From Paenibacillus thiaminolyticus (GTDB lineage: Bacteria; Bacillota; Bacilli; Paenibacillales; Paenibacillaceae), in the NCBI RefSeq assembly GCF_007066085.1, contig NZ_CP041405.1, forward strand, positions 4,047,001 through 4,111,000: 64,000 bases of DNA, read 5' to 3'. Below the pieces are notes generated by a model. It saw nothing but the letters and a program-made list of their open reading frames with translations, did no database searches and was not told the DNA's origin. The translations under genes and the position numbers were made by a program. Position 1 is the first letter of the stretch; every line of letters begins with the position of its first letter. Below, piece by piece: positions 4,574 to 60,911 of the stretch.

Positions 4574-4580
4574 CGCCATT

Positions 4581-9869: not shown

Positions 9870-9944
9870 TGGCGCGCCCGCAAGGAATCGAACCTTGATC
9901 TCAGGCTCCGGAGGCCTACGTCATATCCATTGGACCACGGGCGC
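9870..9944 (-). tRNA. tRNA-Arg (anticodon CCG)
   Basis: The minus strand folds as a complete cloverleaf of 75 nt with encoded CCA. The acceptor pairs GCGCCCG with CGGGCGC, the discriminator is G, and the T-loop reads GGTTCGATTCC. The anticodon loop is CTCCGGA, giving CCG, which reads the Arg codon CGG. The remaining DNA from 9641 to 10057 holds only the terminator at 9712. Confidence 0.95.
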
Positions 9945-10057
9945 ACAATCAGAAGACGCAAAATTTATTATAGTGGATAGGCCACCGGAATGCAAGAGTA
10001 AAATAAATGAAATGAATAAGACCCGATAAAGACGGGCAGCGAACACCAGAACTACGC

Positions 10058-10372
10058 TCAGGTTGTCAGGCGGAGTCCGATAATACCGACGACGATCAAC
10101 GCCAGGAAAAAGAATTGCTTCCGGGTATAGTGCTCCTTGAACCAGAACAAGCTGACGAGCGTAATCCCGACGGCACCGACACCGGCCCAGACCGCATACG
10201 CGACCCCGGCAGGGATGACGCTCATCGCGTGGGTCAGCAAATAAATGGAGGCGACGAGCCCGAGCGTGATAATGACAAGCGGCGTCTTCTTCTTGAAGCC
10301 ATAAGCATACTTCATGGCGACGACCGAAATGATCTCCTCCAGACCGGACAAGATTAAATAAAACCAGGCCAT
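10058..10372 (-). CDS. Small multidrug resistance (SMR) transporter subunit, YkkD-like
   Basis: 104 residues with four membrane helices. The essential Glu is in helix 1 (LILSGLEEIISVVAMKYA), and the helix 3 motif GVAYAVWAGVGAVG is typical of the family. Its start overlaps the stop of the upstream SMR gene (TAATG), so the two subunits are co-translated and probably assemble as a heterodimer like YkkCD or EbrAB. Known substrates of such pairs are guanidinium compounds or quaternary ammonium drugs; which applies here is not shown by the sequence. Confidence 0.92.
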   Translation of the reverse strand: MAWFYLILSGLEEIISVVAMKYAYGFKKKTPLVIITLGLVASIYLLTHAMSVIPAGVAYAVWAGVGAVGITLVSLFWFKEHYTRKQFFFLALIVVGIIGLRLTT

Positions 10373-10716
10373 TAGGACTCACTCCCTTCACGGTTCCCGC
10401 ACTCCTCGCGGTTCGGGGTCGACAGCTTCATGCCGATAATGCCGGTCAGCAGCACGAGCAGGAACGTTATTTGCAACCCGTTGAACGCTTCACCCAGATA
10501 GATGCTGGCCACATAGGTGCCGATCGTGCCGATGCCGACGAACACGGTATATGCGATAGCGACGTTCAGCCTCCGATAGGATTGGATAAGCAATAGGTAG
10601 CTGACTGTAATGAGTATGATAACGCCGATCCATTCCCATGTCGTTGATGCGTACTTCAGGCCGGAAGCCCACACAATCTCCATTAAGGCGGCGACAAGCA
10701 CAAGCAGCCAAGCCAT
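10372..10716 (-). CDS. SMR transporter subunit, YkkC/SugE-like
   Basis: 114 residues and four helices. The helix 1 motif MEIVWASGLKYA (conserved Glu13) resembles the SugE/Gdx guanidinium exporters, and IAYTVFVGIGTIGTYVAS is the helix 3 signature. The start at 10716 is chosen because AGGAGGTTTTATT precedes it; the longer frame to 10836 has no SD. It is the first gene of the pair and overlaps its partner by one base. A polar tail (STPNREECGNREGSES) extends past helix 4. Confidence 0.92.
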   Translation of the reverse strand: MAWLLVLVAALMEIVWASGLKYASTTWEWIGVIILITVSYLLLIQSYRRLNVAIAYTVFVGIGTIGTYVASIYLGEAFNGLQITFLLVLLTGIIGMKLSTPNREECGNREGSES

Positions 10717-10900
10717 AATAAAACCTCCTCTTGTCTTACAATGCCAATGCAGCAGGACATTCATGCGTGAGAATGGTGTGCTGCACGGAACGCGTGATGA
10801 TGTAACATAATTCTTCTTCCCGGCGGCGCGGTTCATCCAGCCAGCGAATCAAGGATGTGCTTTGCACGCCAGACGAAGTAATGATTGGCCGGAAAACAGG

Positions 10901-10915
10901 ATGACTGACTGTCAT
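10901..10915. promoter_or_regulatory. Inverted repeat upstream of the SMR pair
   Basis: ATGAC-TGACT-GTCAT is a perfect inverted repeat 185 bp before the SMR start, a plausible TetR-type operator. No regulator gene is adjacent. The rest of 10717-11112 shows no gene and none of the conserved blocks of a guanidine-I riboswitch. Confidence 0.35.
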
Positions 10916-11112
10916 TCATTTTACACCACCATTGATTTTTCGTAAAGGCCATTCCCGAATCTATGCGGTTTCCCGGCCGAAGCCGGACTCTTACCTTGTC
11001 CAAAAAGAGCTATATATGGGTAAGGATACGATAGCGGAGATATAATCAGCCGTCTGCTGGGCAATACAATGAATAAGTTATTCTTTCCTTGCCCATTATA
11101 GAGGCGGGATAC

Positions 11113-11183
11113 TTGCAAGTTGCTCGATTATTCGCTAGAATAATGGTGGGACACAAATCGTTGCGATGGGACGTTTTTGGTCC
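11113..11183 (+). promoter_or_regulatory. cggR-gapA promoter with CggR operator
   Basis: The -35 TTGCAA (11113-11118) and -10 TAGAAT (11136-11141) are separated by 17 bp. Just downstream lie direct repeats TGGGAC at 11147 and 11167, and TGGTCC at 11178-11183. This layout resembles the B. subtilis CggR operator (CGGGAC-n6-TGTCC twice), with a 20-bp rather than 21-bp period. CggR bound here would block elongation from the promoter until fructose-1,6-bisphosphate rises. Confidence 0.85.
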
Positions 11184-11215
11184 AATGGTTGGTTACGGAG
11201 CAGGAGTGGAGAGAA

Positions 11216-12271
11216 ATGCGTGATTGGTTACAATTACAGAAGCGACTGCTGCCCGAACTCATCGAACTGTTGAAGAAGCGTTACACCATCCTGCATCAGA
11301 TCATGTTGTCCGACTGTATTGGCAGGAGGACGCTCGCGACGTCATTGCAGATGACCGAGCGCGTGCTGCGGGCGGAGACGGACCTGCTGAAGGCGCAGGG
11401 CCTGATCGAGATCGACAGCATGGGCATGCGCATCAGCGAGGAAGGCAGGCAGCTTGTCCGCCAGTTGGAGCCCTTGATGGGCGAACTGCTCGGCATGCGC
11501 CATCTGGAGGAGAGCATCCGTCAGGCCTTCGGACTGACTCAGGTCATCGTCGTGCCTGGCGATTCGGATGTGTCGCCTGCCGTGAAGGATGAATTGGGCA
11601 CGGCAGTATGCAGCGCTCTCAGCAGCGTCATGGGCAAGGAAGATGTTGTCGCGGTGACCGGCGGCTCCACATTGGCTGCGGTGGCAGATCAATTGACGAG
11701 CGCCACACCATGGAAGGGCAACTGGTTCGTACCGGCCCGAGGGGGATTGGGAGAGAGTCTGGAATACCAGGCGAATACGATTGCCTCGACGATGGCTAAG
11801 CGCGTAGGAGCTCAATACCGACTGCTTCATGTACCCGATCAATTGAGCGAAGAAGCGTACCAATCGTTGAAGCAAGAGCCCAATATTCAGGAGATTCTGC
11901 GGGTTATCCGGCAAGCGCGCATCGTCGTGCACGGCATCGGAGACGCCCAAGTGATGGCTGCGCGCCGGAAGGTAGACGAAGCCACACGGGAAGAATTGAA
12001 GCGCAAGAGAGCTGTCGCCGAAGCGCTAGGGTATTACTTCGACCGGGATGGCCGCGTCGTACATACGATGTTGTCTCTGGGCTTGCGCCTGGAGGACATT
12101 ACGCGTACCGAAGTGGTAATCGCCGTCGCAGGCGGGAAGAGCAAGGGCGAAGCCATTGCAGCCGTGCTGCGCCACGGGCATGAAGACATTCTGGTCATTG
12201 ATGAAGCGGCAGCGGTTGAAGTATTGAAGCATAGTGGTCTCGATGTGCCTACGGGCCGTCTTGAGCAATAA
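11216..12271 (+). CDS. cggR: Central glycolytic genes regulator (SorC family)
   Basis: 351-residue repressor. The N-terminal winged helix (RYTILHQIMLSDCIGRRTLATSLQMTERVLRAE) is followed by a SorC-type phosphosugar-binding domain (VAVTGGSTLAAVADQL; VVHGIGDAQVMAARR; VAVAGGKSKGEAIAAVLR). Bound fructose-1,6-bisphosphate is the known inducer in B. subtilis. I use ATG 11216 because AGGAGTGGAGAGAA precedes it and because it aligns with known CggR N-termini; an in-frame TTG at 11177 would lie inside the operator. It precedes gapA by 34 bp. Confidence 0.95.
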   Translation: MRDWLQLQKRLLPELIELLKKRYTILHQIMLSDCIGRRTLATSLQMTERVLRAETDLLKAQGLIEIDSMGMRISEEGRQLVRQLEPLMGELLGMRHLEESIRQAFGLTQVIVVPGDSDVSPAVKDELGTAVCSALSSVMGKEDVVAVTGGSTLAAVADQLTSATPWKGNWFVPARGGLGESLEYQANTIASTMAKRVGAQYRLLHVPDQLSEEAYQSLKQEPNIQEILRVIRQARIVVHGIGDAQVMAARRKVDEATREELKRKRAVAEALGYYFDRDGRVVHTMLSLGLRLEDITRTEVVIAVAGGKSKGEAIAAVLRHGHEDILVIDEAAAVEVLKHSGLDVPTGRLEQ

Positions 12272-12287
12272 AAATCAATCTACTTAG

Positions 12288-13310
<1,023 letters not shown>

Positions 13311-13779
13311 TCGCATAGCATTGACAATCAAAGAGGAGTAACCGCAAAGGGCTCCTCTTTGATCCATGCATACGTGCGCGTACGGCATATCGAGAACCTG
13401 ACCGAATAGATACAAGTACGAATAGAGAAGCCGGGCATGAACGTACTGATCCGGCGCCGAACGATAGATAGAGACGCTCCTGCCGGGTCCAACCGTGGAC
13501 TGGGAGCAGGGCGGCAGGGCTGGAGAGAGCCCGTGAACGATTCCGTAAGGAATACGAACCGAACCGTACAAGATATAAAATAGATAGAGCCCGATTAGAC
13601 TTAGAAAGAGCGGCAACAAAAGATATAGAGAACAAATACAGAACGAATAGAGAGCGAATACAGAGCGAAGCTGCCGCGGCAGCACCGCATACCGGACAGA
13701 GAACAGAACCGTATGGAGCCGATGAACGCAAGCTTCTCGAAGAGAGGCCCGTTCATGCGAGTGATAGGAGGAACGCGAG
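13311..13779 (+). other. Long gapA-pgk intergenic region with stem-loop and purine-rich stretch
   Basis: 469 bp without a gene. A 12-bp perfect stem, ATCAAAGAGGAG pairing with CTCCTCTTTGAT, starts at about 13327. It lacks a T-run, so processing or attenuation is more likely than full termination. From about 13400 the plus strand is rich in GA/GAA words (AATAGAGA, GAACAGAA, GATAGAGC). A perfect palindrome GCTGCCGCGGCAGC lies at 13670-13683 and a TGAACG...CGTTCA hairpin just before the pgk ribosome site. Confidence 0.6.
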
Positions 13780-14961
13780 ATGAACAAGAAAAGCGTGCGT
13801 GACATCGACGTAAAAGGCAAGCGCGTATTTGTGCGGGTAGACTTCAACGTGCCGTTGGAAGACGGCAAGATTACCGATGATACCCGGATTCGCGAGACAT
13901 TGCCTACGATTCAGTATTTGGCCGAGCAAGGCGCCAAGATTATTTTGGCGAGCCACCTGGGACGTCCGAAAGGCGAGGTGGTCGAGTCGATGCGCCTGAC
14001 GCCTGCGGCGAACCGCCTGAGCGAGCTGCTCGGCAAGCCGGTCAAGAAGCTGGACGAATCGATCGGCGAGCAAGTGCAAGCGGAGATCAACCGCATGAAC
14101 GACGGCGACATTGTCGTATTGGAGAACGTCCGCTTCCACAAAGGCGAAGAGAAGAACGATCCGGAACTGGCGAAGGCGTTCGCAGCGCTTGCGGACGTGT
14201 ATGTGAACGACGCTTTCGGTGCAGCGCACCGGGCGCATGCTTCGACCGAAGGCATCGCGCATCATCTGCCAGCCGTATCCGGTCTGCTGATGGAGAAGGA
14301 ATTGTCGGTGTTGGGCAAAGCGTTGTCCAATCCGGAACGTCCGTTCACTTCGATTATCGGCGGCTCCAAAGTCAAAGACAAAATCGACGTCATCAACAAA
14401 ATGCTGGAAATCTCGGACAACGTCATTATCGGCGGAGGTCTGGCTTACACATTCTTCAAGGCGCAAGGCTACGAGATTGGCCAATCGCTGTGCGACAACG
14501 AGAAGCTGGATGTCGCGCTTGGCTTCATCGAGAAGGCGAAGCAGCTCGGCAAGAATTTCTACCTGCCGGTCGATATCGTCGTATCGGATGATTTCAGCGC
14601 CGATGCCAACACGAAGATCGTCGCTATCGACGAGATCCCGGCGGATTGGGAAGGTATCGACATCGGACCGAAGACGCGTGAGATCTATGCGGATGTCATC
14701 AAGAACTCCAAGTTGATCGTATGGAACGGACCAATGGGCGTGTTCGAGATTGAACCGTTCTCTCACGGAACGCGCGCGGTCGCTCAGGCTTGCGCAGAGA
14801 CCGAAGGATATACGGTCATCGGCGGCGGCGACTCCGCGGCAGCGGTAGAGAAGTTCCATCTGAAAGACAAGATGGATCATATCTCGACTGGCGGCGGCGC
14901 GTCCCTCGAATTCATGGAAGGCAAGCAGTTGCCTGGCGTAGTGGCATTGAACGATAAGTAA
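13780..14961 (+). CDS. pgk: Phosphoglycerate kinase
   Basis: 393 residues. It transfers the acyl phosphate of 1,3-bisphosphoglycerate to ADP in lower glycolysis. The N-terminal substrate motif [33 protein letters not shown], and the C-terminal nucleotide site [17 protein letters not shown] with [12 protein letters not shown] are all present, so both Rossmann-like domains are complete. The start is ATG after AGGAGGAACGCGAG. It is first in a tight pgk-tpiA-gpmI-eno run transcribed with cggR-gapA or from an internal promoter in the upstream gap. Confidence 0.98.
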
Positions 14962-15015
14962 GGAAGTGAAGCGGCAGCGGCGATCCCGCCGCTTCTGCTG
15001 TGCAGAAGGAGTTGA

Positions 15016-15774
<759 letters not shown>

Positions 15775-15775
15775 G

Positions 15776-17317
15776 ATGTCTGCACCTAGACCTGTAGCTC
15801 TGATTATTATGGACGGCTTCGGACTGCGCAACGTGACGGAAGGCAATGCAGTCGCGCAGGCGAAGAAGCCGAATTACGATCGTTATATGAATACGTACCC
15901 GCATACGACCCTAACCGCCTGCGGTGAAGCGGTCGGTCTGCCGGAAGGCCAGATGGGCAACTCCGAAGTGGGCCATCTGAACATCGGTGCAGGCCGTATC
16001 GTCTATCAAGATCTGACCCGGATTACGAAATCGATTCGCGAAGGGGAGTTCTTCGAGAACGAGACGCTGCTCGGGGCCGTCAATCATGCGAAAGCGAACG
16101 ATACCGCGCTTCATCTGTACGGCCTGCTGTCGGACGGCGGCGTGCACAGTCATATCAACCATACGCTCGCTATGCTGGAAATGGCTGCGAAGGCCGGCTT
16201 GACGAAGGTCTATGTTCATGCCTTCCTCGATGGCCGCGACGTCGCGCCGGACAGTGCGATCGGTTATATCGAGCGCCTGCAGGCCAAAATCGACGAGCTT
16301 GGCGTCGGCCGCATCGCAACGGTGCAAGGCCGTTACTATGCGATGGACCGCGACAAGCGCTGGGAGCGGACGGAGAAGTCGTACCGTGCGATGGTATACG
16401 GCGACGGGCCGAGATACCGCGATCCGCTGCAAGCGGTGAAGGAATCGTACGAGCAGTCGGTATTTGACGAATTCGTCATGCCGACGGTTATCGTCGACGA
16501 GAACAATGAACCGGTCGGCCTCGTGCGCGACAACGACGCGGTCGTGTTCTCGAACTTCCGTCCGGACCGGGCGATTCAATTGTCTCAGGTGTTCACGAAC
16601 GAGGATTTCCGCGGCTTCGACCGGGGAGACCAATGCCCGAAAAACCTGTACTTCGTCTGCTTGACGTTGTTCGCGGAGACCGTCGGGGGATTCGTGGCGT
16701 ACAAGCCGAAGGAGCTTGATAACACGCTTGGCGAAGTGCTTGTCCAGCAGGGCAAGAAGCAGCTTCGCATCGCCGAGACGGAGAAGTATCCGCACGTGAC
16801 GTTCTTCTTCAGCGGCGGCCGCGACGTCGAGCTTCCGGGCGAGAAGCGCGTTCTGATCGCTTCGCCTAAGGTCGCGACCTACGACCTGAAGCCGGAAATG
16901 AGCGCGTATGAGGTGGCGGAAGCGGCTGTGCGCGAGATTGAATCGGATGTGCATGACACGATCATTCTCAACTTCGCCAACCCGGACATGGTCGGGCACA
17001 GCGGCAAGCTGGAGCCAACGATCAAGGCGGTCGAGGCGACGGATGAATGCATGGGCCGCGTCGTCGAAGCGGTACTGGCTAAGGGCGGTGTCTGCCTCAT
17101 TACGGCGGATCACGGCAATGCCGATATGGTGTTCGACGAAGAAGGCCGTCCATTCACGGCGCATACGACGAATCCGGTGCCGTTCATCGTCACCGCGAAG
17201 GACGTCGAGCTGCGCGAAGGCGGCATCCTGGCCGACATCGCGCCGACGATTCTCGATCTGATGCAGCTGCCGAAGCCGGAAGAAATGACTGGGACTTCGT
17301 TAATTGACAAGAAATAA
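15776..17317 (+). CDS. gpmI: 2,3-bisphosphoglycerate-independent phosphoglycerate mutase
   Basis: 513 residues, a Mn-dependent alkaline-phosphatase-fold enzyme that converts 3-phosphoglycerate to 2-phosphoglycerate. LIIMDGFGL holds the first metal Asp, [10 protein letters not shown] the phosphoserine nucleophile (Ser63), and [12 protein letters not shown] and [15 protein letters not shown] the remaining metal ligands. The length matches the family. The SD lies inside the 3' end of tpiA. In Bacillus this enzyme is pH-sensitive through its Mn sites and is essential for sporulation; that is family knowledge, not seen here. Confidence 0.98.
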
Positions 17318-51453: not shown

Positions 51454-52320
51454 TCACTCGAAATATCGAAGGTACACATCCTCCAAATTCGGCTTTACCG
51501 TTCGGGATTCCATATGCTCCAAGGGTTCATCGTGAACGATTCTCGCCCAGATGCCGCTTGAATCGCTCGTAATCTGGCTAACTTTGAAGCGGTACTGCAC
51601 CTCGGCAAGCTCAGACTCCGTGACGCGCGCCTCATGGACTTTGCCTTCCATGCCGGCCAGGATGCGAGCAGGCTCGTCTTTGACAAGAAGCTTGCCTTCC
51701 TTCATCAGAAGAATTTGCTTCGAGATGAACTCGATATCGGACACGACATGGGTTGCGATAAGCACAATTTTATTCATGGCGATGGTCGATATGAAGTTGC
51801 GGATGCGAATGCGCTCTTTCGGATCAAGCCCTGCGGTCGGCTCATCCAGGATCAACAGCTTCGGGTCATTCAATAGCGATTGTGCGATCAGAATACGCTG
51901 CTTCATTCCGCCAGAGTATGCGCCAAGCTTCGTATCCGCATCCTTGCGCAGATTCACGATGTCCAGCAGATCATCGATTCTTTCTCTAGCCTGCGGCGCC
52001 TTGATCCCTTTGAGAGCGGCGATGTACCATAGAAATCTCCGGCCCGTGAAATGATGATATAGTCCTTGCTGCTGAGGCATATATCCCAAAATATTCCGAT
52101 ACTCCTTGCCGAGACGAGAGATGATCTGATCGTTATATCGAATCTCTCCTTCATCCTGCTTCAACTGATTCGTAATCAGATTCATGAGCGTAGACTTGCC
52201 AGCGCCATTCGGACCCAATATGCCGTATATTCCAGGGGAGAACTCGGCCCTGAAGCGATCTAGCGCCGTTTTGCGCCCTTTGTTATAGCGCTTCGTTACA
52301 CGATCAATAGTCAGTTCCAC
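51454..52320 (-). CDS. ABC transporter ATP-binding protein 2 of the ECF-linked cluster
   Basis: 288 residues. Walker A GPNGAGKS, Q-loop LGYMPQQQGLYHHFTG, signature YSGGMKQRILIAQSLL, Walker B LLILDEPTAGLDPKER and H-loop IATHVVSDIE are intact; a C-terminal domain of about 70 residues follows. GTG start with GGGGGAC upstream. Its N-terminus (MELTIDRVTKRY) is very like that of the ATPase at 57764, so the two transporters are paralogues. It is two bases downstream of its permease. Confidence 0.94.
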   Translation of the reverse strand: MELTIDRVTKRYNKGRKTALDRFRAEFSPGIYGILGPNGAGKSTLMNLITNQLKQDEGEIRYNDQIISRLGKEYRNILGYMPQQQGLYHHFTGRRFLWYIAALKGIKAPQARERIDDLLDIVNLRKDADTKLGAYSGGMKQRILIAQSLLNDPKLLILDEPTAGLDPKERIRIRNFISTIAMNKIVLIATHVVSDIEFISKQILLMKEGKLLVKDEPARILAGMEGKVHEARVTESELAEVQYRFKVSQITSDSSGIWARIVHDEPLEHMESRTVKPNLEDVYLRYFE

Positions 52321-52322
52321 GG

Positions 52323-54731
52323 TCAGTCCCCCTTCTGAATGAAGCTATTGAATGTCCGCCATGCGCCAATGCCGCATCCGATGCCAAGAAGAAGCAGCGT
52401 TCCATAATACATGCTCATGTTCAGCGCATATTGTGATGTTGGAAAGGCGTGATACAGTTGAAAAAGAAGATTGAAGGATATGCTGCCGATTGGTTTCCAT
52501 CCCATATACTGCAGACCAAGCGGGATGACCACGATAGCGGTTGAAATTAGCAGCAGGATCGCTTGTCTGCGGACAAGCACCGCCAGGAATAGCACGACAT
52601 GAACGAGCAGCAGCACGCCTCCGATCTGGAACACACCCATCAGGAGAACATACTGCAGGATGCTCAACGATCCCTCTACATGCCCGAGCACTTCGATGCT
52701 CTGAACCGGAGCCTGCCAATCGATGTCAGGGTAATGCCTTAGCATATTATGGAACTTCGGGATCTGAAGCAGGAGGAGCAGGAAGACGCTGTACAAATAG
52801 GCAACGGCATGCTTGGAGAGGAACAGGTTCCCCCTGCCATGATGGGTGCTCCGTAGTATAGCCATCATGCCATACCTGTAATCAAGGGCGAACAGCGGGC
52901 TGAGTCCGGCCAGCAATAAGACGGCATACAACAGGCCATCCCGCAGATCCGATTGCTGCCGGTTGAACAGCGCATCGGAAGATGTCACATTCACGAAGCT
53001 GCCCGTAATTCCACGGTCTTCCTGCAGCCTTAACAAGTAATCCCTCTGCTCCTCAATGTACTGAAATGCTTTCGCCTGCTTGGCGAACTCCTCCAGCTTC
53101 ACCTTTTCTGTATTATAGACCGTAAAATCAATGCTGCCGGTCGTATATTGTTCATACCAATAAGCGAACTGCCGCGGCAGATCATCGTATTTTGCCCTTT
53201 CTTCCTGCAGGAAGTTCAGTTTATCTTCATTGATTGTACCGCTGATCTGATCCAAATAGCGGTTATAGACGATGGAATCGAAATCGAACCTTCGCTCATC
53301 CCAATCGATCTGCTGATATACGATAACTCCTGCGAGCAGCAGCAGGAGAATACTTTTCCCGGAGATGAACAATTTAAATCCTTCATGCATCAATAGGGAA
53401 TTGATGCGCCGCAGCTTGAACCATGCCGCATGCAATCTTCCCCGCCAGCGATTCCAAGGAAGCCGCGACCCGATGCCGGCATCGGACACATAAAGCCACG
53501 CGCAGAGTAGGGGCAGCAGCATCATCACAGCCCCACCGAGCCAATACGTCAATGTCGTCTTCTTTACCGGGTAACCGAACACATTCAGGTTCCGATAATC
53601 CGCAAGAAGCTGGAAGGAATCGTAGAATGCAACCACGTTCATATATTTGAACATATTCAGGTAAGAATTCGGATGGATCACGGAATAGCATAGAAAGCTG
53701 ATGCCTAACAATGCCGCTGTCGCCAGGTAGACTCCTCCGGCCCGGCGAAATAATAAGAACAAGGCGGCAAGCATCCAGGCAAATAACAGGTTCGCAGCTA
53801 CCTTCAGTAACAGATAGAGGACAAGGAACTGCCCCACTGGTAACGCCTCGACTGCTCCCTGAAATGACGGCATGGATTGAATATAACGGTGAAGGTCCCC
53901 AAAGCCATAGAGATGTTCGCTTATCACCAAAATCGATCCCTGGTATAAGAGGGTCAGCAGTACGGTCAGCAGGCTCAGCACAACCCATTTCGCTCGCCAC
54001 AGGTCAAGCAGACCGTTGCGCGTCGAACGGATGAGGCGGGTCAGCCCTTCTTCCTTCTCAACCTGGAACAAAATGATGCATAGCAGGAACAAGAGCGCGG
54101 CAAGGCACATATCCGTGGACTGCAGCCGCGTGCCTGAGGTGAGCCCCTCTTCCAGTCCCAACTGCAGCGGCAAGCCGCGGAGCGGATCGAAGTCATGCAC
54201 CGTTTTCCCAATATTACGGTAGGAGTAAGTTCCCTCCCGATAGAAGATGGAGACCGACAGCATCTCTTCTGCTCGAGTGCCCATTTCTTCCATCGTCCGC
54301 AGATACTGGTCCATATGCTCGTATTGCTTTTTGATTCGTTCGATGAGATATAATTCTCGGCCAATCAGCTCCGGGTTGCCTGCATAAGGGCTTTGCCTAT
54401 ACTGCTTATACTCCTGAGGATGGGCCTGCTTGGCTTCATGGATGGCTTGCCCCCAGATCTCTTCGGCAATGGTTCCTTCTTGGGCAAATGTGCTGTATAA
54501 AGCCAATAAATCCGCTTGTCTGGCGGCTACTGCCAGCCCCTCATCGGTTGGCAAGCTTCGATATTGTTGCTCCAGGCGTTCATACTCATCTCTGTGCTGA
54601 ATCAGAGCTATTTGCTCGCGGAACTGGGTATTATAGTAGAACAGTCCATTGCCGATCAGTAGCAGGACGGCCAGAAGGGCAAAGACTCGTCTATGCCATA
54701 CCTTCAACAGCTCATATCCGATTAATGTCAT
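52323..54731 (-). CDS. Large duplicated ABC permease (two fused half-units)
   Basis: 802 residues. Each half starts with an N-terminal helix, then a Glu/Arg/Tyr-rich extracytoplasmic domain of about 150 residues and a five-helix ABC-2-like core. The first half begins MTLIGYELLKVWHRRVFALLAVLLL, and the second, near residue 440, LLMHEGFKLFISGKSILLLLLAG. The 375-residue permease at 56640 corresponds to one half. Fusion of two permease halves matches the large bacteriocin-associated membrane proteins in size and layout. AAGGAG precedes the ATG. Confidence 0.85.
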   Translation of the reverse strand: MTLIGYELLKVWHRRVFALLAVLLLIGNGLFYYNTQFREQIALIQHRDEYERLEQQYRSLPTDEGLAVAARQADLLALYSTFAQEGTIAEEIWGQAIHEAKQAHPQEYKQYRQSPYAGNPELIGRELYLIERIKKQYEHMDQYLRTMEEMGTRAEEMLSVSIFYREGTYSYRNIGKTVHDFDPLRGLPLQLGLEEGLTSGTRLQSTDMCLAALLFLLCIILFQVEKEEGLTRLIRSTRNGLLDLWRAKWVVLSLLTVLLTLLYQGSILVISEHLYGFGDLHRYIQSMPSFQGAVEALPVGQFLVLYLLLKVAANLLFAWMLAALFLLFRRAGGVYLATAALLGISFLCYSVIHPNSYLNMFKYMNVVAFYDSFQLLADYRNLNVFGYPVKKTTLTYWLGGAVMMLLPLLCAWLYVSDAGIGSRLPWNRWRGRLHAAWFKLRRINSLLMHEGFKLFISGKSILLLLLAGVIVYQQIDWDERRFDFDSIVYNRYLDQISGTINEDKLNFLQEERAKYDDLPRQFAYWYEQYTTGSIDFTVYNTEKVKLEEFAKQAKAFQYIEEQRDYLLRLQEDRGITGSFVNVTSSDALFNRQQSDLRDGLLYAVLLLAGLSPLFALDYRYGMMAILRSTHHGRGNLFLSKHAVAYLYSVFLLLLLQIPKFHNMLRHYPDIDWQAPVQSIEVLGHVEGSLSILQYVLLMGVFQIGGVLLLVHVVLFLAVLVRRQAILLLISTAIVVIPLGLQYMGWKPIGSISFNLLFQLYHAFPTSQYALNMSMYYGTLLLLGIGCGIGAWRTFNSFIQKGD

Positions 54732-54765
54732 GAGGAACTCCTTGCATCAATGGCATTCTCAAGGT

Positions 54766-55968
54766 TTAACGGAGCTTTGTCTCCAACAAAGGTTTTAACT
54801 TAGCTTGTCCTGACTCAATCTCTCGTTTGTCCAAATACAAGATGGAACTCTTATCTGACAGCTCGTTATAGGCAAACATATAGCGATCGTCACCTGGGAC
54901 CATTTCAATATGTTTGGAAAAAGGAGATAGATCAACTTGATGAATCAGAGCGTTATCTTTGAAAATGGATAGCTGAACCGGGACGTCTGGAGCATACTCA
55001 TGGACATAGCCGCCTATCGGCTGAATATATGTATATAACGAGTCTCTGTAAATATAAGAAATAATAGGTGGGTGATCTACCTTTACTTCTTCGATATGAT
55101 TCCCTTCCAGGTCGGACGAGTATTTCTTGTGCGTCCGCTTGTCCAACGGATCGCCATAGAAATAAGAGAAGTAAAGCCTATTATTAGCGATGTTGCGTAA
55201 GCTGGATAACCCGCCATCTCCGCGATCCCACAATGTTGTCACTTGGCCGCTTTGAAGATCGTATCGTTGGGTTTCATAGCCTTTCTCGTTAAATACGAGC
55301 CAGTATAATTGCGTTCCATATGGAATGATATCGGTTATCTCATTCACTTGATCAGATGCGTGATAAATCAATTCGGGATCTTGCTTCAAATTATCAAGGC
55401 TCGCTTTGAAGACGTTCACTTCCAGGTCACTCTCTCTGTTCCCGTCTGTAGTCGAATAATAGAGATAGCCTCGATGAATGGCCAGCGATCTCGGTGCGGC
55501 TTCAAATGTTTTGATGACTTTTCGATTTTTTCCGTCCGGATCTAGCCTGACGAGCGTCCAAGTATTATCGAACCTCGAGCGTTTGCTTTCTCGATCCAAG
55601 TAGCTTTCTAATACATACAGATGTGTATCATAATATTGTAAAAACTGAGGCGGATTGGATGATGAAAATGGAACGAACGCGAAGCAGTTTTCTGTAGTCG
55701 GAATATCCATGCATTGATTGTCAGGACGATTATCCAGAAGAATGGGCTTTGTGCTCTCTTTGTCCATATAATAAATAAGTTGTTGATGAAGGAAGTAATA
55801 TCCCTTATCTGATCGGGTTATCTTCAAACCATACCCTTGTTTATGGTACATAAAGGGATAGTCCCAATCCAAGTGATATTCATTGTCGTCTGGAAACGTC
55901 TTACTGGAACACCCTGATGCAAGGATCAGGCATAGTAGCAGGGTAAAGGAAATGTATTTCTTCATCAC
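54766..55968 (-). CDS. Lipoprotein with predicted beta-propeller (DUF5050-like)
   Basis: 400 residues. Lipobox ASGC (Cys20) follows a short signal. The mature part repeats strands such as KGYYFLHQQLIYYMD, THLYVLESYL, RGYLYYSTTDG, TQLYWLVFNE, NRLYFSYFYGD and DSLYTYI, which is the pattern of a DUF5050/WD40-like propeller. It is surface-anchored and lies between the secreted protein and the large permease, so it may bind the exported molecule or shield the producer. AAAGGATACCGTG precedes the ATG. Confidence 0.82.
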   Translation of the reverse strand: MMKKYISFTLLLCLILASGCSSKTFPDDNEYHLDWDYPFMYHKQGYGLKITRSDKGYYFLHQQLIYYMDKESTKPILLDNRPDNQCMDIPTTENCFAFVPFSSSNPPQFLQYYDTHLYVLESYLDRESKRSRFDNTWTLVRLDPDGKNRKVIKTFEAAPRSLAIHRGYLYYSTTDGNRESDLEVNVFKASLDNLKQDPELIYHASDQVNEITDIIPYGTQLYWLVFNEKGYETQRYDLQSGQVTTLWDRGDGGLSSLRNIANNRLYFSYFYGDPLDKRTHKKYSSDLEGNHIEEVKVDHPPIISYIYRDSLYTYIQPIGGYVHEYAPDVPVQLSIFKDNALIHQVDLSPFSKHIEMVPGDDRYMFAYNELSDKSSILYLDKREIESGQAKLKPLLETKLR

Positions 55969-56016
55969 GGTATCCTTTCTCTAGATATTGCAGTTATGAG
56001 ACGATAAAGAGATAAT

Positions 56017-56053
56017 GCCTTGGGGAAAGTGATCCGTTCCCCTCCCCCAAGGC
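56017..56053 (-). other. Stem-loop between the small secreted protein and the lipoprotein
   Basis: GCCTTGGGG (56017-56025) pairs perfectly with CCCCAAGGC (56045-56053). No U-run follows on the minus strand, so it is probably an mRNA 3' stabiliser or leaky stop that favours the upstream gene. Confidence 0.6.
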
Positions 56054-56076
56054 TAAATCGTTAATGTAGAATATTA

Positions 56077-56475
56077 CTAGTAGTTAACCGACGTAGTATC
56101 TTCCCATGTAGCAGAACCTACTTCCGCCTTATGCTCTGCAGATGCGGATACTGACAATGCAGGCACGTATTGTGCTTTGGCGGTAGCCGAGACTCCGGGC
56201 TGTTTCTCATAAGCCGAAGCTGTTGAAGAGCGAGTCACGGTTGCATCTCCATGCTTGTAGTAGTAAGTTACTTTAACATGAGAGTAGCAATTGCTGCCTC
56301 CACATGAAGTTTGTCCTGAGGCGCTGTCGCTGTAAATTGTTACCCTGCCAGAAGTATCATTATTTCCGGCTTTACCAGTCGTATAGGACTTGGCATAAAC
56401 CCCGCTAGCAAATAACATCGACGCTGCCAGCACAGTAGTTACAAGAGTTAAACACTTTCTGCGGTTAAGCTTCAA
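56077..56475 (-). CDS. Small secreted protein, possible antimicrobial or signalling product
   Basis: 132 residues. A signal peptide (KLNRRKCLTLVTTVLAASMLFASGVYA) is followed by a mature part of about 104 residues rich in Ser, Thr, Ala and Tyr. It has one Cys pair (TSCGGSNCYS), then strands VKVTYYYKHGDATVTRSS and a repeated SATAKA/SVSASAEH pattern, ending TSVNY. The length, signal and strand-rich make-up recall lactococcin-972-type bacteriocins, but the match is not convincing. TTG 56475 is chosen because AGGAG lies eight bases before; GTG 56484 overlaps that SD. It has its own promoter and sits between two ABC transporters. Confidence 0.72.
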   Translation of the reverse strand: MKLNRRKCLTLVTTVLAASMLFASGVYAKSYTTGKAGNNDTSGRVTIYSDSASGQTSCGGSNCYSHVKVTYYYKHGDATVTRSSTASAYEKQPGVSATAKAQYVPALSVSASAEHKAEVGSATWEDTTSVNY

Positions 56476-56550
56476 GAGAATCACTCCTAATCAGTTATTA
56501 GGTGATTTGCAAGTGATTTTCCCATGGTGTTCCTACCAGTATTCGGCCGA

Positions 56551-56565
56551 ATTAGTAGTACTAAT
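56551..56565. promoter_or_regulatory. Perfect palindrome between promoter and small secreted protein gene
   Basis: ATTAGTA-G-TACTAAT, 15 bp, about 75 bp before the TTG start and directly downstream of the promoter at 56580-56608. A repressor site or RNA hairpin. Confidence 0.65.
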
Positions 56566-56579
56566 ACCACCCGATACAT

Positions 56580-56608
56580 ATATTACCACATGATTGGTTT
56601 ATATGTAA
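56580..56608 (-). promoter_or_regulatory. Promoter of the small secreted protein gene
   Basis: Minus strand -35 TTACAT (56603-56608), 17-bp spacer, -10 TAATAT (56580-56585). A sigma-A-like promoter inside the cluster lets the secreted protein be made independently of the ECF sigma operon. Confidence 0.65.
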
Positions 56609-56639
56609 TATATAAATTTAAGCGCTTTTCCTAGACCTC

Positions 56640-57767
56640 CTAAGTCACCTGGTGCCGCTGGAACACACGCCGGGTTACCCAGACAAGAACTCCAGTGACG
56701 GCGATGACGCAGCTTACCGTAGCCACGGGATAGAGGACAGGGAAATGGAATATATTGGCCGTTTCGAATTCAGTAAATAACCTTGTAACTCGGATGAATT
56801 GGCTGTAGCTGAATGTGGTCAGCCACTCGATAATGGCAAATCGAATGTTGAACACATCATACAGCACGTAAGGGACGCCGAGTATTCCGCCCGCAATGAA
56901 TAGCGTCAGGAACGATGATTTACACAAGGAAGACACGAACATGACCGCAAGCGCGAATGCAATGCATCCGATGATATGCACTACGAACTGAATGACGTAG
57001 TACTGTCCGGCCGTCCATGAATATGGCGAGCTCCGGAACGAGTGAGAGTCCATATATCTGCTTATGCTATAGAGCGGAGTGTCGGCTCCATCCAGATTAC
57101 CGAACAGCAGCGCAATCACACCGAGATTGAATAGTTGGAAGGCGGCGCTGCATATGAACGCATAGAGAATAGCGGCACAGCATTTGGCGGAGATGAGCTG
57201 CCCCTTCCCGTACCGGCTGCTTAAGAGAAGGCTGTCCATTCCGGTTGCATATTCCTCGGAGTATAGCGGAGCCAGGCCGATAAGAATCATCACCCCCATG
57301 AAGGCAACGCCGAATTGATCCATGATATAGAATATATTGGCCCAAGGCTTGTTGTAATAGACTTGTCCTGTAGGAGGCCCCTTGTGCGTCAGGAGCTGTT
57401 CGTGCAGAGCATGCTGCTTGTATTCGTAACTGCCGGGAGCGCTAAGACGAAGCTTGTCCCGAATCTCCGCAAGCTGCTTCGTATAATGCTCTTGTAACGT
57501 GGGCACATCCCAAATATCCTGCAGCAAGCCGTTGTCAACGAGAGGCAATCTTCTGTCTTCATGTTCTCTAAAAATCAGCTCTACCTTGGCTATATCTTGT
57601 TCCGTTATGACCCGTTCATACGGTTTATATTTGTGGGAGGCGTCTTTGTAATAATCAATATCGTACACGATAAAAAGGCCATAGACGAGCAGCAGGAGCA
57701 GGCTGACGACAAGCACGCTTTTACGCGAAAAAATTTTGATTAATTCATACTTCAACAAATGTCTCAT
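56640..57767 (-). CDS. ABC transporter permease 1 of the ECF-linked cluster
   Basis: 375 residues: N-terminal helix (KSVLVVSLLLLLVYGLFIV), extracytoplasmic helical domain of about 115 residues, then five helices (FMGVMILIGLAPLYSEEYATGMDSLLLSSRYGKGQLISAK carries the ABC-2 coupling region). Its ATG overlaps the ATPase stop (ATGA). It is equivalent to one half of the 802-residue permease. Confidence 0.88.
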   Translation of the reverse strand: MRHLLKYELIKIFSRKSVLVVSLLLLLVYGLFIVYDIDYYKDASHKYKPYERVITEQDIAKVELIFREHEDRRLPLVDNGLLQDIWDVPTLQEHYTKQLAEIRDKLRLSAPGSYEYKQHALHEQLLTHKGPPTGQVYYNKPWANIFYIMDQFGVAFMGVMILIGLAPLYSEEYATGMDSLLLSSRYGKGQLISAKCCAAILYAFICSAAFQLFNLGVIALLFGNLDGADTPLYSISRYMDSHSFRSSPYSWTAGQYYVIQFVVHIIGCIAFALAVMFVSSLCKSSFLTLFIAGGILGVPYVLYDVFNIRFAIIEWLTTFSYSQFIRVTRLFTEFETANIFHFPVLYPVATVSCVIAVTGVLVWVTRRVFQRHQVT

Positions 57768-58636
57768 GCTTCAAACTCCTCGTTAAAATAGTGCAAATAC
57801 AAATCTTCCAGCCCCGGCGATTCCGGCTGCGCCGAGGAGAAAGGCTGGTCCTTTGCCAGAATTCGCACCTCAATACCGTCCGGCTGGCGAAGGAGGTTCC
57901 CGATTTTGTAGCGCAGCTTCAACTGAGGCAGCTGGCTCTCATCGATCTTCGCCTTCCAGACCCTGCCTGTGAGTTGTCCCAGCAGCGAAGCGAGCCGATC
58001 CTGTTTCAGCAGCTGCCCTTCCTTCATGAGCAGAACTTCCTTGGCGGCATATTCGATATCCGACACGATATGGGTCGACAAAATGACGATGCGGTCTCCC
58101 GACAGCTCGGACAAAATATTACGGAAGCGAATCCGCTCCTTCGGATCGAGTCCGGCGGTAGGCTCGTCCAGAATTAGCACCTTCGGGTCATTCAGCAGCG
58201 CCTGAGCGATGCCGAGCCGCTGCCGCATTCCGCCGGAGAAGGATTTGATCTTTCGCTTGGCCTGATCCGCCAAGCCGACCAACTGCAGCATCTCATCGAC
58301 CTTGCCGACGTCATAACCTCGATCCATTCCTTTCAACGAAGCGATATACATCAGAAATTTCCGGGCCGTAAACTCCTTGTAGTATCCGCATTGCTGCGGC
58401 AGATAGCCCAGTATGTCGCGATAGGCTTCTCCCAGCGTACGAATATCGTGATTGTTCAAGCGAATGCTCCCAGAGGTCGGGCGCAGGATATCGGCGAGCA
58501 TGCGAAGCAGCGTTGTCTTGCCCGCTCCATTGGGGCCCAGTAATCCGTATACGCCAGGGCTCAGTTCTGCCGTAAAATGCCGCACCGCCTGCTTGTCCTT
58601 GTATTGCTTCGATATGTTGTCAATCGTTAGCTCCAT
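57764..58636 (-). CDS. ABC transporter ATP-binding protein 1 of the ECF-linked cluster
   Basis: 290 residues. Walker A GPNGAGKT, Q-loop LGYLPQQCGYYKEF, signature FSGGMRQRLGIAQALL, Walker B VLILDEPTAGLDPKER, H-loop LSTHIVSDIE. It overlaps the 3' end of the membrane protein upstream by 17 bases and its permease by four. The order sigma-membrane protein-ATPase-permease is similar to the sigY-yxlCDEFG operon of B. subtilis. Confidence 0.94.
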   Translation of the reverse strand: MELTIDNISKQYKDKQAVRHFTAELSPGVYGLLGPNGAGKTTLLRMLADILRPTSGSIRLNNHDIRTLGEAYRDILGYLPQQCGYYKEFTARKFLMYIASLKGMDRGYDVGKVDEMLQLVGLADQAKRKIKSFSGGMRQRLGIAQALLNDPKVLILDEPTAGLDPKERIRFRNILSELSGDRIVILSTHIVSDIEYAAKEVLLMKEGQLLKQDRLASLLGQLTGRVWKAKIDESQLPQLKLRYKIGNLLRQPDGIEVRILAKDQPFSSAQPESPGLEDLYLHYFNEEFEA

Positions 58637-59447
58637 AATTCAGACTTCCCTCCACGATAAATGAATGGCGCCGGACAAGGTGCATGCCCTCCCGAATGAG
58701 GAGCAGGAGCGCTCCGGCATTGATGATAACGGTGATGCCGATGTTGATTCCCATCAAGTACGGCATGACATTCGAATTCGTCAGCACGATCATGCCCAGC
58801 GCCATCCAGACAGCGGTCAGAACCATGATGGCAGATGTGCCGCGGATGCGCATGGCGATCCATAGGGAAATGGAGGCGACGATGATGAACGGCGTGAACC
58901 AGCTCCATGTCAGACTCCACAACGAAAAGTCATCCCGTACCAAATAAAGCAGGCCGGACAAGCATGTGTTCCATACTAGGCTGTGCAGCAAAATGAACAG
59001 CAACCGCGACAGCATAATCTCTTGAACGGATATTTTGCAGGCCAGCTCGACTTCGAGCACTCCCTGCTCTCGGCCCTTGAATACTTCTATCAATCCGATA
59101 ATAAACGGAAGCGGCGCTAATAGGATGACTGCAGCATAGGAAGACTGAGCAGCCGCAATCGTGAACCACAGCCCTGCTCCGAATAGAATAAGGCAGCCGA
59201 GCCAGTACAAGCGGCTGAACATTGCGATGTCTGCTCCCGCCCGGCGCATCAATTCGCCCCATCGCCGCTTCGCAGGCGGTACTGCTGCCGGTTTTACGGG
59301 GACATGTTTTCTTAATGCTTCGATTGTCCGCTCTACCTCATTGTCGGTCGGGAGCTCTACCCGATAGGGCTTCAGCAGGTTGCGGATAGCTTCGTAATCG
59401 GCGTCATGCAGCTGTTCCGTTGGCTTACCCTTGCTTCCTGTGGTCAC
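58620..59447 (-). CDS. Membrane protein, candidate anti-sigma factor
   Basis: 275 residues. A cytoplasmic N-terminal region of about 80 residues (QLHDADYEAIRNLLKPYRVELPTDNEVERTIEALRKHVP) is followed by six hydrophobic helices (starting FSRLYWLGCLILFGAGLWF). It has no zinc-finger Cys/His. Position directly after an ECF sigma gene, with overlapping frames, is the usual place for an anti-sigma, which would hold the sigma at the membrane. GTG 59447 follows GGAGGTGAGGGCA and is preferred over GTG 59456. Confidence 0.65.
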   Translation of the reverse strand: MTTGSKGKPTEQLHDADYEAIRNLLKPYRVELPTDNEVERTIEALRKHVPVKPAAVPPAKRRWGELMRRAGADIAMFSRLYWLGCLILFGAGLWFTIAAAQSSYAAVILLAPLPFIIGLIEVFKGREQGVLEVELACKISVQEIMLSRLLFILLHSLVWNTCLSGLLYLVRDDFSLWSLTWSWFTPFIIVASISLWIAMRIRGTSAIMVLTAVWMALGMIVLTNSNVMPYLMGINIGITVIINAGALLLLIREGMHLVRRHSFIVEGSLNYGAND

Positions 59448-59994
59448 TGCCCTCACCTCCGGCCAGCAGTATTTGTTTGAGCTTGGATATTCCCGCTTTG
59501 ATACGATATTTGATCGTAGACTCGCTCGTGTCCGTCATCACCGCAATCTCTCGAATCTTCATATCATGATAGAAGTTCAGTATAATCGCGTCCCGCTGCT
59601 TCTCCGGCAAGGAGAGTACGGCCTGCTTCGCTTGCTCCTGCTGATAGTGGCAATGGAACAGATCCCATACATTGCTGTTCTCATCCGGCATGTCCACTTC
59701 CAATTCCGTATGCGCATGCCGATGCCGGTACTGCTTGCTGCGGTAATAGTCATAGCAGTGATTGACGGCGATTTTCAACAGCCAATGCCGGAACCTCCCC
59801 TTGTCACGGTAGTTGCCGAGCGATTGCATCATCTTGATAAATACTTCCTGGGTCAGATCGTAAGCGGTATGCCGATTCCCGATTTTTCGATACAGATAGG
59901 AGTAGACGTCCGAATAATGGCGCTTCACAAGCACTTCCATCGCAGCTTGACTCCCGCCTCGAATCTCTTCAATTAATTCCTCATCGGTAAGCAC
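59425..59994 (-). CDS. ECF-type RNA polymerase sigma factor
   Basis: 189 residues. Region 2 (VLVKRHYSDVYSYLYRKIGNRHTAYDLTQEVFIKMMQSLGNYRDKGRFRHWLLKIAVNHCYDYYR) and region 4 (VLSLPEKQRDAIILNFYHDMKIREIAVMTDTSESTIKYRIKAGISKLKQIL) are intact, with a short acidic linker that contains DEN. It is probably the first gene of the operon. GTG 59994 has the better spaced SD (GGAGGGGGTGA); GTG 60003 is very near it. I could not find a convincing ECF-type promoter upstream. Confidence 0.92.
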   Translation of the reverse strand: MLTDEELIEEIRGGSQAAMEVLVKRHYSDVYSYLYRKIGNRHTAYDLTQEVFIKMMQSLGNYRDKGRFRHWLLKIAVNHCYDYYRSKQYRHRHAHTELEVDMPDENSNVWDLFHCHYQQEQAKQAVLSLPEKQRDAIILNFYHDMKIREIAVMTDTSESTIKYRIKAGISKLKQILLAGGEGSDHRKQG

Positions 59995-60104
59995 GGTGCT
60001 CACCCCCTCCTCTAACTGTAACGAAAAAAGTCGAAAAAAAGACGAAGGGCTTGCGATTATTTTTGTAAATGAGTTGAAAAACGAAAGAATGGACCGGGCT
60101 CCAT

Positions 60105-60911
60105 TTAAACATCGCCCGGCACCTGAAACACAAGCAGAGGCATACGCCTGGCATGCCTCTCTCTCAATCTATGACACTCTAGCCACATGTCCAAAGTGGA
60201 TAAGTCGGAGCGCTGCACTCGAATGGCGTATTGCAGAATCGGAGAGGTTAAGGCGCGGAGCTCCCCATCCTTGGCCTCTGGTTCGATGCCGCGCGGATGA
60301 TCGTTCTCAAGGTACCGGGGATGGCACATGATCTCGGTTGTTCCCTCGTGCAAATGATGAATATGGTGCAGGAGCCGGGTCAGGCCGTCATCGGCATCAT
60401 AAGTAGCCATGATGAGACGATCGGTACGCAAGGGCCGCCTGATCGGGTCGTTGGACCAAGGATGCAGCCGCATCGGGATGTTCCTCTGCTGGGCGAATGA
60501 CTTCATAACGGCATATACTTGGGGAACTTCAAGATGTGTATGATGATGGGAATCCAGGTGGGTAGGCATAATTCCGGCGGTGACCAGCTTGTTGAACTGA
60601 TGATTCAGCTCAACTTCAATCTCCGCCTCTCTCCAGACATGTCGCTGTCCCGAGAAGCTGCCGTCCCCTCCCGCAAGGGATGGAACGCACTCAGGGGGAG
60701 CGATGGCGGTTCCGCAGGTTAAGTTGAAATGCAGGCCCACCCCTAAGGACGGAGTACGCAGCGCCCACCCGACAGCCTGCTGGAATGCCGGCATATTTGC
60801 CATGAGTGAGCTGCTGGTCACGGTTCCGAAGGAATGGGCTTCCATAATTCCTGTGTTGACAGGCTCGGAGTATCCTTAATCATCGGCATTCATAACCAGA
60901 TATTTAGCCAA
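60105..60911 (-). pseudogene. YdjC/ChbG-family carbohydrate deacetylase with nonsense codon in the metal motif
   Basis: From TTG 60911 (GGGGAG upstream) the frame reads MAKYLVMNADD, then TAA at 60876-60878, then GYSEPVNTGIMEAHSFGTVTSSSLMANMP and the rest of a complete YdjC domain (VGLHFNLT; PTHLDSHHHTHLEVP; TTEIMCHPRYL). The stop replaces the Phe of the NADDFG metal motif. Translation from the internal ATG at 60845 would lose the metal-binding Asp pair. YdjC/ChbG proteins remove acetyl groups from chito-oligosaccharides. Another member begins near the window end. Confidence 0.82.

Follow-up and report, generated by a model that had tools for sequence, protein, structure and literature searches.

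A recurring Paenibacillus operon for a secreted protein, a lipoprotein and a duplicated ABC transporter, putatively bacteriocin-like, adjoins a separable ECF sigma circuit

The eight open reading frames between positions 51454 and 60003 of the window (the whole 64-kb stretch of Paenibacillus thiaminolyticus DNA that was analyzed) form two separable modules, that is, adjacent operons and not a single unit. Module A comprises an ECF sigma factor, a membrane protein and an ABC transporter pair, and module B a small secreted protein, a lipoprotein, a duplicated permease and an ATPase (Table 1). All eight are present on the minus strand, overlapping or separated by short gaps, as an earlier sequence-only reading of this DNA had it, and the widest gaps flank the gene for the secreted protein (164 nt before it and 108 nt after it). 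Judged from gene order in related genomes, module B is a recurring operon, and its layout resembles that of a bacteriocin gene with its immunity genes, the antimicrobial role being putative. We tentatively propose, at a likelihood that falls just short of even, that it encodes a new Sec-secreted, bacteriocin-like protein together with a NisI/LanFEG-like self-protection set, both antagonism and immunity being predicted functions.

Table 1. Features of the two modules, with positions counted in the window
Feature	Module	Positions	Strand	Basis
Promoter-like motif before sigma gene		60019..60043	-	[AG]TC[CT]TTTT-N-CGT[TC]
ECF sigma factor, 192 aa	A	59425..60003	-	PF04542 (E 9.6e-19), PF08281 (E 6.1e-13); TIGR02937, 101.6 bits (cut-off 42.9)
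Membrane protein, 275 aa	A	58620..59447	-	~73 residues, then ~6 TM segments (hydropathy)
ABC ATPase, 290 aa	A	57764..58636	-	PF00005 (E 3.8e-32)
ABC-2-like permease, 375 aa	A	56640..57767	-	hhalign to halves of the 802-aa permease
Possible promoter of secreted-protein gene		56580..56608	-	TTACAT-N17-TAATAT with extended -10 TGG, by eye
Secreted protein, 132 aa	B	56077..56475	-	Sec-type signal peptide, ~residues 1-28; mature part ~104 aa
GC-rich hairpin, possible attenuator or processing site		56017..56053	-	Folding; directly after secreted-protein gene
Lipoprotein, 400 aa	B	54766..55968	-	LASGC lipobox, from sequence
Duplicated ABC-2-like permease, 802 aa	B	52323..54731	-	Homologous halves (hhalign)
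ABC ATPase, 288 aa	B	51454..52320	-	PF00005 (E 1.6e-30)

The secreted protein has 132 residues when read from a TTG codon at 56475, for which an AGGAGTG ribosome site was assigned by eye; the alternative GTG start at 56484 would make it 135 residues long. A positively charged N terminus is followed by a hydrophobic segment (residues 8-26), and by hydropathy alone the protein has a Sec-type signal peptide. It is rich in serine, threonine and alanine and is probably β-rich. Searches with eight members of the family gave no significant match in Pfam, NCBIfam or the PDB, in keeping with the sequence-only reading, in which no family had been recognized. The best sub-threshold E-values among these members (0.01, 0.14 and 0.088, respectively) are taken as chance; a C2-domain match in two of the eight (best E 0.01) and gelsolin-nanobody PDB matches of the family profile (E ~0.09) were rejected as such. 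Among 5.8 billion proteins, homologues number five by single sequence and 13 at E ≤ 1 by profile. The one possible disulfide noted earlier may form in this strain, but the cysteine pair is present in 5 of 10 aligned members and was rejected as a defining feature of the family. In six pairs of close relatives dN/dS lies between 0.11 and 0.21, which indicates constraint, or purifying selection; diversifying selection was not found by this measure. From the dN/dS table the rows for the module A ATPase against G008 and G009 were dropped as cross-matches to the other ATPase. Allele P0004 is identical to ours at 27 of 28 positions of the signal peptide and at 69 of 103 of the mature part, and allele P0005 at 24 of 27 and 65 of 104; the permeases that carry the same locus-tag prefixes (P0008 and P0007) are 94% and 91% identical to ours.

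Folding predicts a hairpin in the gap after the secreted-protein gene at every one of 13 loci (z from -2.9 to -5.2); of 55 other gaps on the same strand, 11 likewise reach z ≤ -2.9. The terminator scan did not call the hairpin in the window, the hairpin having no run of T. The lipoprotein has an LASGC lipobox, and C86 and C95 are invariant in 10 aligned relatives. No Pfam family matches this lipoprotein at E ≤ 1, and one of five relatives scanned matches PF17974 at E 0.0024, under the cut-off of that model; on the impression given by its sequence it may be a β-propeller. The 802-aa permease is a tandem duplication: hhalign aligns one half with the other (E 1.3e-8) and either half with the 375-aa permease (E ~1e-11). 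Hydropathy places in it TM1, a large extracellular domain and a TM bundle twice in succession. Of 394 Paenibacillaceae genomes, 15 have a whole-length relative, which in one of them lies in two frames; one relative (P0020) carries PF12679, and TIGR03732 (MutE/EpiE) matches our permease weakly (E 0.047, far below its cut-off). The module B ATPase is 54-76% identical across divergent module B loci. It is ~50% identical to the module A ATPase, both having PF00005, and the description of the two ABC pairs as paralogous is therefore correct.

The search for the secreted protein in the 394 genomes gave 30 rows, of which 15, with E from 7.5e-5 to 0.01, were dropped; a 513-aa lipoprotein-like protein, a 140-aa secreted protein and a 170-aa ORF are among the dropped rows. 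All 11 strong matches (E < 1e-40) adjoin the permease, and other Paenibacillus lineages, whose secreted proteins are only ~30-40% identical, have the same succession of secreted protein, lipoprotein, permease and ATPase. The sequence-only reading had named as fatal to its proposal a known non-toxic family whose homologues lie apart from such transporters; since no known family matches and the homologues do adjoin such transporters, this is not what was found. Five loci (G527, G619, G655, G668 and G040) have an intact transporter, while the secreted protein is missing, is cut short or survives as a remnant resembling a signal peptide, the remnant of G527 being recognized by eye and not significantly detected by the profile. 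In G655 and G668 the permease is only 27% identical to ours, the gene order differs and no lipoprotein matches ours, so that the secreted gene may have been missing from these loci from the start; both genomes hold weak secreted-protein relatives elsewhere. The permease of G002 is in two frames beside an intact secreted protein, and the first 24 ATPase residues of G571 do not align; thus the transporter may be incomplete at two of the 12 loci that have the secreted protein. In G017 a secreted protein with weak similarity to ours (E 9.6e-8) adjoins a lipoprotein and a MacB/FtsX-type transporter. The genome studied here also encodes a related system, B′, with a small secreted-type protein, lipoproteins, an ATPase and two permeases, and B′ systems in several genomes adjoin BlaI- and BlaR1-like genes (named from reading their sequences).

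Among known systems, the lactococcin 972 loci (lcn972, streptococcin B, mediterrocin) share with module B a small secreted protein with a Sec-type signal peptide as the first gene, after which come a large permease (709 aa in the plasmid locus L105) and an ATPase. We liken the five loci with an intact transporter to those of streptococcin B, a lactococcin-972-type system of which some pneumococcal strains without a functional peptide reportedly keep the remaining genes (PMC11796350). Homology to lactococcin 972 at the level of sequence, prompted by a visual motif match and put forward for checking by the sequence-only reading, was rejected by family models and by profile-profile comparison with shuffled controls. 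Lactococcin 972 proteins match TIGR01653, which as a positive control finds a plasmid lactococcin 972 protein, whereas none of our eight members has TIGR01653 or PF09683 among its listed families at E ≤ 10 (HMMER filters drop most matches above ~0.1), and PF09683 has no match in G000 at E ≤ 0.001. In hhalign comparison of 10 family members with seven lactococcin 972 sequences (six of them plasmid-borne) the signal peptides alone align, and the mature-part score of 10.5 falls within those of 60 column-shuffled controls (median 8.9, maximum 12.4). The transporter of module B is also of another ABC class: the L105 permease and ATPase pass TIGR01654 and TIGR03608 (positive control) and ours pass neither, TIGR01654 not being listed for either permease and the ATPases reaching 101 and 106.8 bits on TIGR03608 (cut-off 254.85). 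Module B further has a lipoprotein, and none is annotated in the four lactococcin 972 loci examined that have a bacteriocin, a permease and an ATPase, for which the plasmid gene tables are incomplete.

In lantibiotic immunity, LanI and LanFEG constitute a lipoprotein and an ABC-2-type transporter encoded beside the secreted antimicrobial, a combination that module B shares. On TIGR03740 our ATPases score 140.1 and 173.6 bits, below the LanFEG cut-off of 309.75, and, in contrast to lantibiotic loci, the eight genes include no lanthionine enzymes and the substrate is of Sec type with ~104 mature residues. NosDFY and the ABCA-type (type V) transporters have the nearest solved ATPases and likewise a large extracellular domain between TM1 and TM2 of each permease half, but our system has other partner proteins, including a lipoprotein without a Pfam family. 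The lethal Slf/DfsB factor of P. dendritiformis, a secreted protein from the same species group, is a cationic, helical peptide according to the title of the paper describing it (PMC4773401); ours, being Ser/Thr/Ala-rich and without a Pfam match, is set apart from it by description.

The sigma factor of module A is a short protein with sigma-70 region 2 and region 4 domains, both Pfam models scoring above cut-off, which places it among the ECF sigma factors. The 275-aa membrane protein, a putative anti-sigma factor or sensor, has no significant Pfam or NCBIfam family, with homologues in 20 of 197 Paenibacillaceae genomes; the 375-aa permease has no Pfam or NCBIfam match, and the nearest solved chains of the ATPase are ABCA3, ABCA1, ABCA7 and ABCA4, then NosF. 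The resemblance to the Bacillus subtilis sigY-yxlCDEFG operon remarked on earlier holds for general gene content (an ECF sigma factor, then membrane protein(s), an ABC ATPase and a permease) and may extend to autoregulation, but the sigma factor scores 103.5 bits on the NCBIfam SigY model NF007216 (cut-off 194), and module A has one 275-aa membrane protein where the yxl operon has yxlC/D/E. At each of the 13 loci examined the promoter-like motif precedes the sigma gene by 37-44 nt, and the window has no other occurrence of it; ~0.016 occurrences would be expected in 13 × 150 nt, for a pattern picked after viewing the very sequences in which it was counted. It is probably the sigma gene's own promoter, which would imply autoregulation. 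As the strict form of the motif has three matches genome-wide against four for a reversed control, no wider sigma regulon is visible.

The sequence-only reading had proposed a self-contained unit with its own regulator, and the eight genes would then be one regulon in which the sigma factor directly switches on the secreted protein and the immunity genes. Both G000 and G007 have the modules contiguous on the same strand, and the scan called no terminator between them; we nevertheless regard a single regulon as very improbable. The motif that precedes the sigma gene throughout is found before the secreted-protein gene at none of 12 loci, and sigma control of that gene was rejected on this ground and on the lack of a wider regulon genome-wide. 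The modules are more often apart than together in the genomes surveyed: module A is found without module B, 11 of the 13 genomes with a strong match to its membrane protein (E < 1e-25), all except G000 and G007, having no permease match, and G008 and G009 have lost the sigma module, of which a 76-bp remnant is left, and have kept module B. The possible promoter of the secreted-protein gene, which the sigma-70 scan did not call, is conserved as a block in four close relatives, two of them without module A. Module A would instead be a separate envelope-stress circuit, in which the ECF sigma factor may transcribe the operon that encodes it, the membrane protein being the likely anti-sigma factor and the ABC transporter the output; it could raise module B solely through read-through or indirectly, in the genomes holding both.

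For module B itself the main rival, which we consider unlikely, is an assembly or maturation machine, in which the lipoprotein and a type V-like ABC transporter would act mechanically on a secreted envelope or surface component, and not a weapon, much as NosDFY acts on its client and the Gld ABC transporter acts in gliding. The ABCA and NosF relatives of the module A ATPase, GldA as the best NCBIfam model for both ATPases (below cut-off), the repeated permease layout and the purifying selection on the secreted protein are consistent with it, yet such a machine should not outlive its sole client, as the transporters without an intact secreted protein adjacent appear to do, and the strong allelic divergence is confined to the mature part. 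Retention of the transporter without the secreted protein would equally suit a device for general resistance to, or sensing of, foreign envelope-active peptides, formed by the lipoprotein and the ABC transporter with the secreted protein as sensor, decoy or bait, and the BlaI- and BlaR1-like neighbors of B′ would fit induction by envelope damage. This we hold to be improbable: no regulator gene is seen attached to module B at the mapped loci without module A, and the lantibiotic-immunity models are matched below cut-off only. The bacteriocin-like reading draws on the constant association of strong matches with the permease and the gene order kept across lineages, on the five loci with retained transporters, on alleles that share a signal peptide and diverge in the mature part while the permeases with matching locus-tag prefixes stay closely similar, and on the ubiquitous hairpin and the G017 relative beside a lipoprotein and transporter. 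Against it stand the lack of a toxin family or of any sequence relationship to a known bacteriocin, the constraint seen in dN/dS, and the interrupted transporter gene of G002, possibly also of G571, while the losses in G655, G668 and G527 may be doubtful.

Under the bacteriocin-like reading the module B protein would leave the cell through Sec, as its signal peptide suggests, and act outside the producer, most likely as an envelope-acting antagonist. The lipoprotein would bind it on the surface of the producer's membrane, from which the duplicated ABC-2-like transporter would clear it, in the way that NisI and LanFEG protect lantibiotic producers by binding and by removal from the membrane; the hairpin may keep the effector transcript more abundant than the immunity transcript. 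A bolder extension, which we think possible but on balance doubtful, is that the protein founds a new Sec-exported, β-rich antagonistic family in the Paenibacillaceae, carried on a modular cassette of effector, hairpin, lipoprotein and ABC transporter, in which the transporter was swapped between at least two ABC classes (duplicated ABC-2-like, and MacB/FtsX in G017) and of which B′ would be a distant branch. Recognition of the neighboring ECF sigma operon as a separable circuit halts the spread of a wrong production-and-regulation annotation. If the bacteriocin-like reading is true, module B would represent an uncharacterized type of bacterial antagonist, secreted and paired with a self-protection set of lipoprotein and ABC transporter, from a genus for which sibling killing is already known.

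All eight genes of the minus-strand cluster that the sequence-only reading had proposed, with two paralogous exporters among them, are found in place (the window covers 4047001-4111000 of the 6.61-Mb genome, a single contig). They form module A, comprising an ECF sigma factor, a 275-aa membrane protein, an ABC ATPase and a 375-aa permease, followed by module B, comprising a secreted 132-aa protein, a hairpin, a lipoprotein, an 802-aa permease and a second ATPase. The two ATPases are ~50% identical and are paralogues, and the 802-aa permease is itself a duplication, with halves that match each other at E = 1.3e-8 and each match the 375-aa permease at ~1e-11. The YdjC-like gene upstream of the sigma gene (PF04794, E = 1.2e-41) looks broken, because of an in-frame stop near its N terminus.

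Coordinates of the cluster and of other features observed
Feature	Sequence (genome)	Position
Eight-gene cluster, minus strand	window (G000)	51454-60003
YdjC-like gene	window (G000)	60105-60845 and bases just upstream
Sigma/membrane-protein/ABC operon, enlarged	L052 (G058)	9479-16703
Other small secreted-type protein	L087	11461-11856
Other small secreted-type protein	L089	3847-4245
Weak relative of the secreted protein, at the head of an operon for a lipoprotein and a MacB/FtsX-type ABC system	L140 (G017)	7740-13433
Weak relatives of the secreted protein, two tandem copies	L141 (G655)	6723-7777
Weak relative of the secreted protein	L142 (G668)	7922-8320
B' locus	L046 (G000:C1:5506000-5523000)	1946-10653
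Other B' loci	L047, L099, L101, L104	

Gene maps around relatives of the 802-aa permease reveal module B lacking a neighboring module A in G008, G009, G002, G406, G553, G571, G612, G615 (the P. humicus locus), G623 and P. athensensis; neighborhood maps likewise place module A alone in G005, G017 and G023. G058, which belongs to a different family within the order, has a version of module A with additional ABC genes, amounting to three permeases and two ATPases. Of 197 Paenibacillaceae genomes, 20 encode a relative of the module A membrane protein; the match is at E < 1e-25 in 13, and only two of these 13, the present genome and G007, also have a match to the 802-aa permease (for the remaining 11, coverage by the 394-genome permease search is inferred, its 347 non-matching genomes being unlisted). 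In G008 and G009 a 76-bp piece from the end of the gene for the 375-aa permease survives just upstream of the secreted-protein gene, so these two genomes have most likely lost module A by deletion while retaining module B. Module B is fragmented in G016, where module A was not found.

The motif [AG]TC[CT]TTTT-N-CGT[TC] lies 37-44 nt upstream of the sigma start at 13 of 13 loci, with ~0.016 occurrences expected by chance for a motif defined on these same sequences, and is absent upstream of the secreted-protein gene (12/12 loci). Its strict form has three matches in the whole genome, one being the site upstream of sigma, versus four in the reversed control. This distribution suggests that the sigma factor probably drives its own operon; the motif search of the 12 loci and the whole genome makes no direct link to module B visible.

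Each of the 13 loci folded, including G040 with its remnant, has a predicted hairpin between the secreted-protein and lipoprotein genes, with z from -2.9 to -5.2; the set contains four closely related loci and the closely related pair G553 and G571. Among 55 further same-strand gaps in the loci retrieved, 11 also reach z -2.9. The terminator scan of the window does not call it, as it lacks a run of T. The 130-nt segments folded for P. humicus and G553 take in a little lipoprotein coding sequence, since the true start lies upstream of the first-called one; the hairpin precedes this sequence.

The secreted protein consists of a Sec-like signal peptide followed by ~104 mature residues. In line with the sequence-only reading, which recognized no family for it, none scores over the cut-off in Pfam or NCBIfam, and there is no significant PDB match. 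Among 5.8 billion proteins a single-sequence search recovered five relatives, four of them named and assigned to Paenibacillus thiaminolyticus or P. dendritiformis, and a ten-sequence profile at least 13 at E <= 1 among the best 8000 candidates scored; the named relatives are Paenibacillus hypothetical proteins. Ten aligned sequences show invariant Y73, A99, H115 and W124 and nearly invariant G76, A111 and T128. With dN/dS of 0.11-0.21 across six pairs among four close genomes, this is a real, constrained protein. In two strain alleles the signal peptide is conserved (27/28 and 24/27) and the mature part strongly divergent (69/103 and 65/104). Two related genomes encode another small secreted-type protein (131-132 aa) downstream of module B.

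Of 394 Paenibacillaceae genomes searched with the permease profile, 15 contain whole-length relatives (in two frames in G002), G016 contains fragments, and eleven more have lower-scoring matches to just part of the C-terminal half. In these 394 genomes, 30 rows at E <= 0.01 come from the secreted-protein profile: 11 strong (E < 1e-40), four at 9.6e-8 to 8.5e-6 and 15 weaker. The neighborhood survey that the sequence-only reading had proposed for the permease shows it adjoining the secreted protein at all 11 strong matches; module B is a recurring operon. Four of the 15 whole-length permeases lack an intact secreted protein beside them: G527 has a signal-peptide-like stretch followed immediately by a stop, without significant score against the secreted-protein profile, and no adjoining relative was found in G619, G655 or G668. 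A fifth such case lies outside Paenibacillaceae, in G040, where a truncated remnant (E = 5.7e-12) adjoins intact transporter genes. In the opposite direction, the secreted protein is intact in G002, with its split permease, and in G571, where the first 24 ATPase residues are unaligned.

Chiefly because transporter genes occur without the secreted gene, and never a strong secreted match without the permease, and also given the gene order and hairpin, the best single reading, held tentatively, is that module B encodes a bacteriocin-like effector together with a lipoprotein and an ABC transporter that protect the producer from it. The main rival, a NosDFY-type assembly machine, we consider less likely. 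Within NCBIfam both ATPases tend towards the GldA/DrrA models, and in PDB that of module A tends towards ABCA and NosF.

Weak relatives of the secreted protein have other settings. In G017 one (E = 9.6e-8) heads an operon that continues with a lipoprotein, two MacB/FtsX-type permeases (of which one scores above and the other below the cut-off for PF02687) and an ATPase and closes with a solute-binding protein (PF01547); a DUF3502 protein follows the loci in G655 and G668. G000 and other genomes also carry a second system, B', in which lipoproteins, two permeases and an ATPase accompany a different secreted protein of 127-137 aa whose C terminus bears a GTHGVQGG-like motif. The mature secreted parts of B' and module B align at an hhalign score of 22.1 (E = 0.0028), compared with at most 18.2 in 60 column-shuffled controls, which is suggestive, not proof, of kinship. 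Some B' loci contain BlaI- and BlaR1-like genes, named by eye; the small ORF has no normal signal-peptide start in G000 and has one in G007 and G010.

TMcins (PMC12328743) and Slf/DfsB (PMC4773401) are set apart from the secreted-protein system by their description in the available portions of those reports. No published account of the module B operon was found in the literature searched, which mostly did not cover subscription journals. Lactococcin-972-type loci, in the available text of two papers (PMC12345188, PMC11796350), combine a Sec-type bacteriocin with a large (DUF1430-type) permease and an ABC protein. Among plasmid loci with annotated family members, the three proteins of one exceed the cut-offs of TIGR01653, TIGR01654 and TIGR03608; the cluster proteins pass none of these, including TIGR01653 for the 132-residue protein, for which the sequence-only reading had suggested this search, and the secreted protein does not pass a profile-profile test either, so that membership is rejected. 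While not a member by sequence, the system may nevertheless work like those of the lactococcin-972 type.
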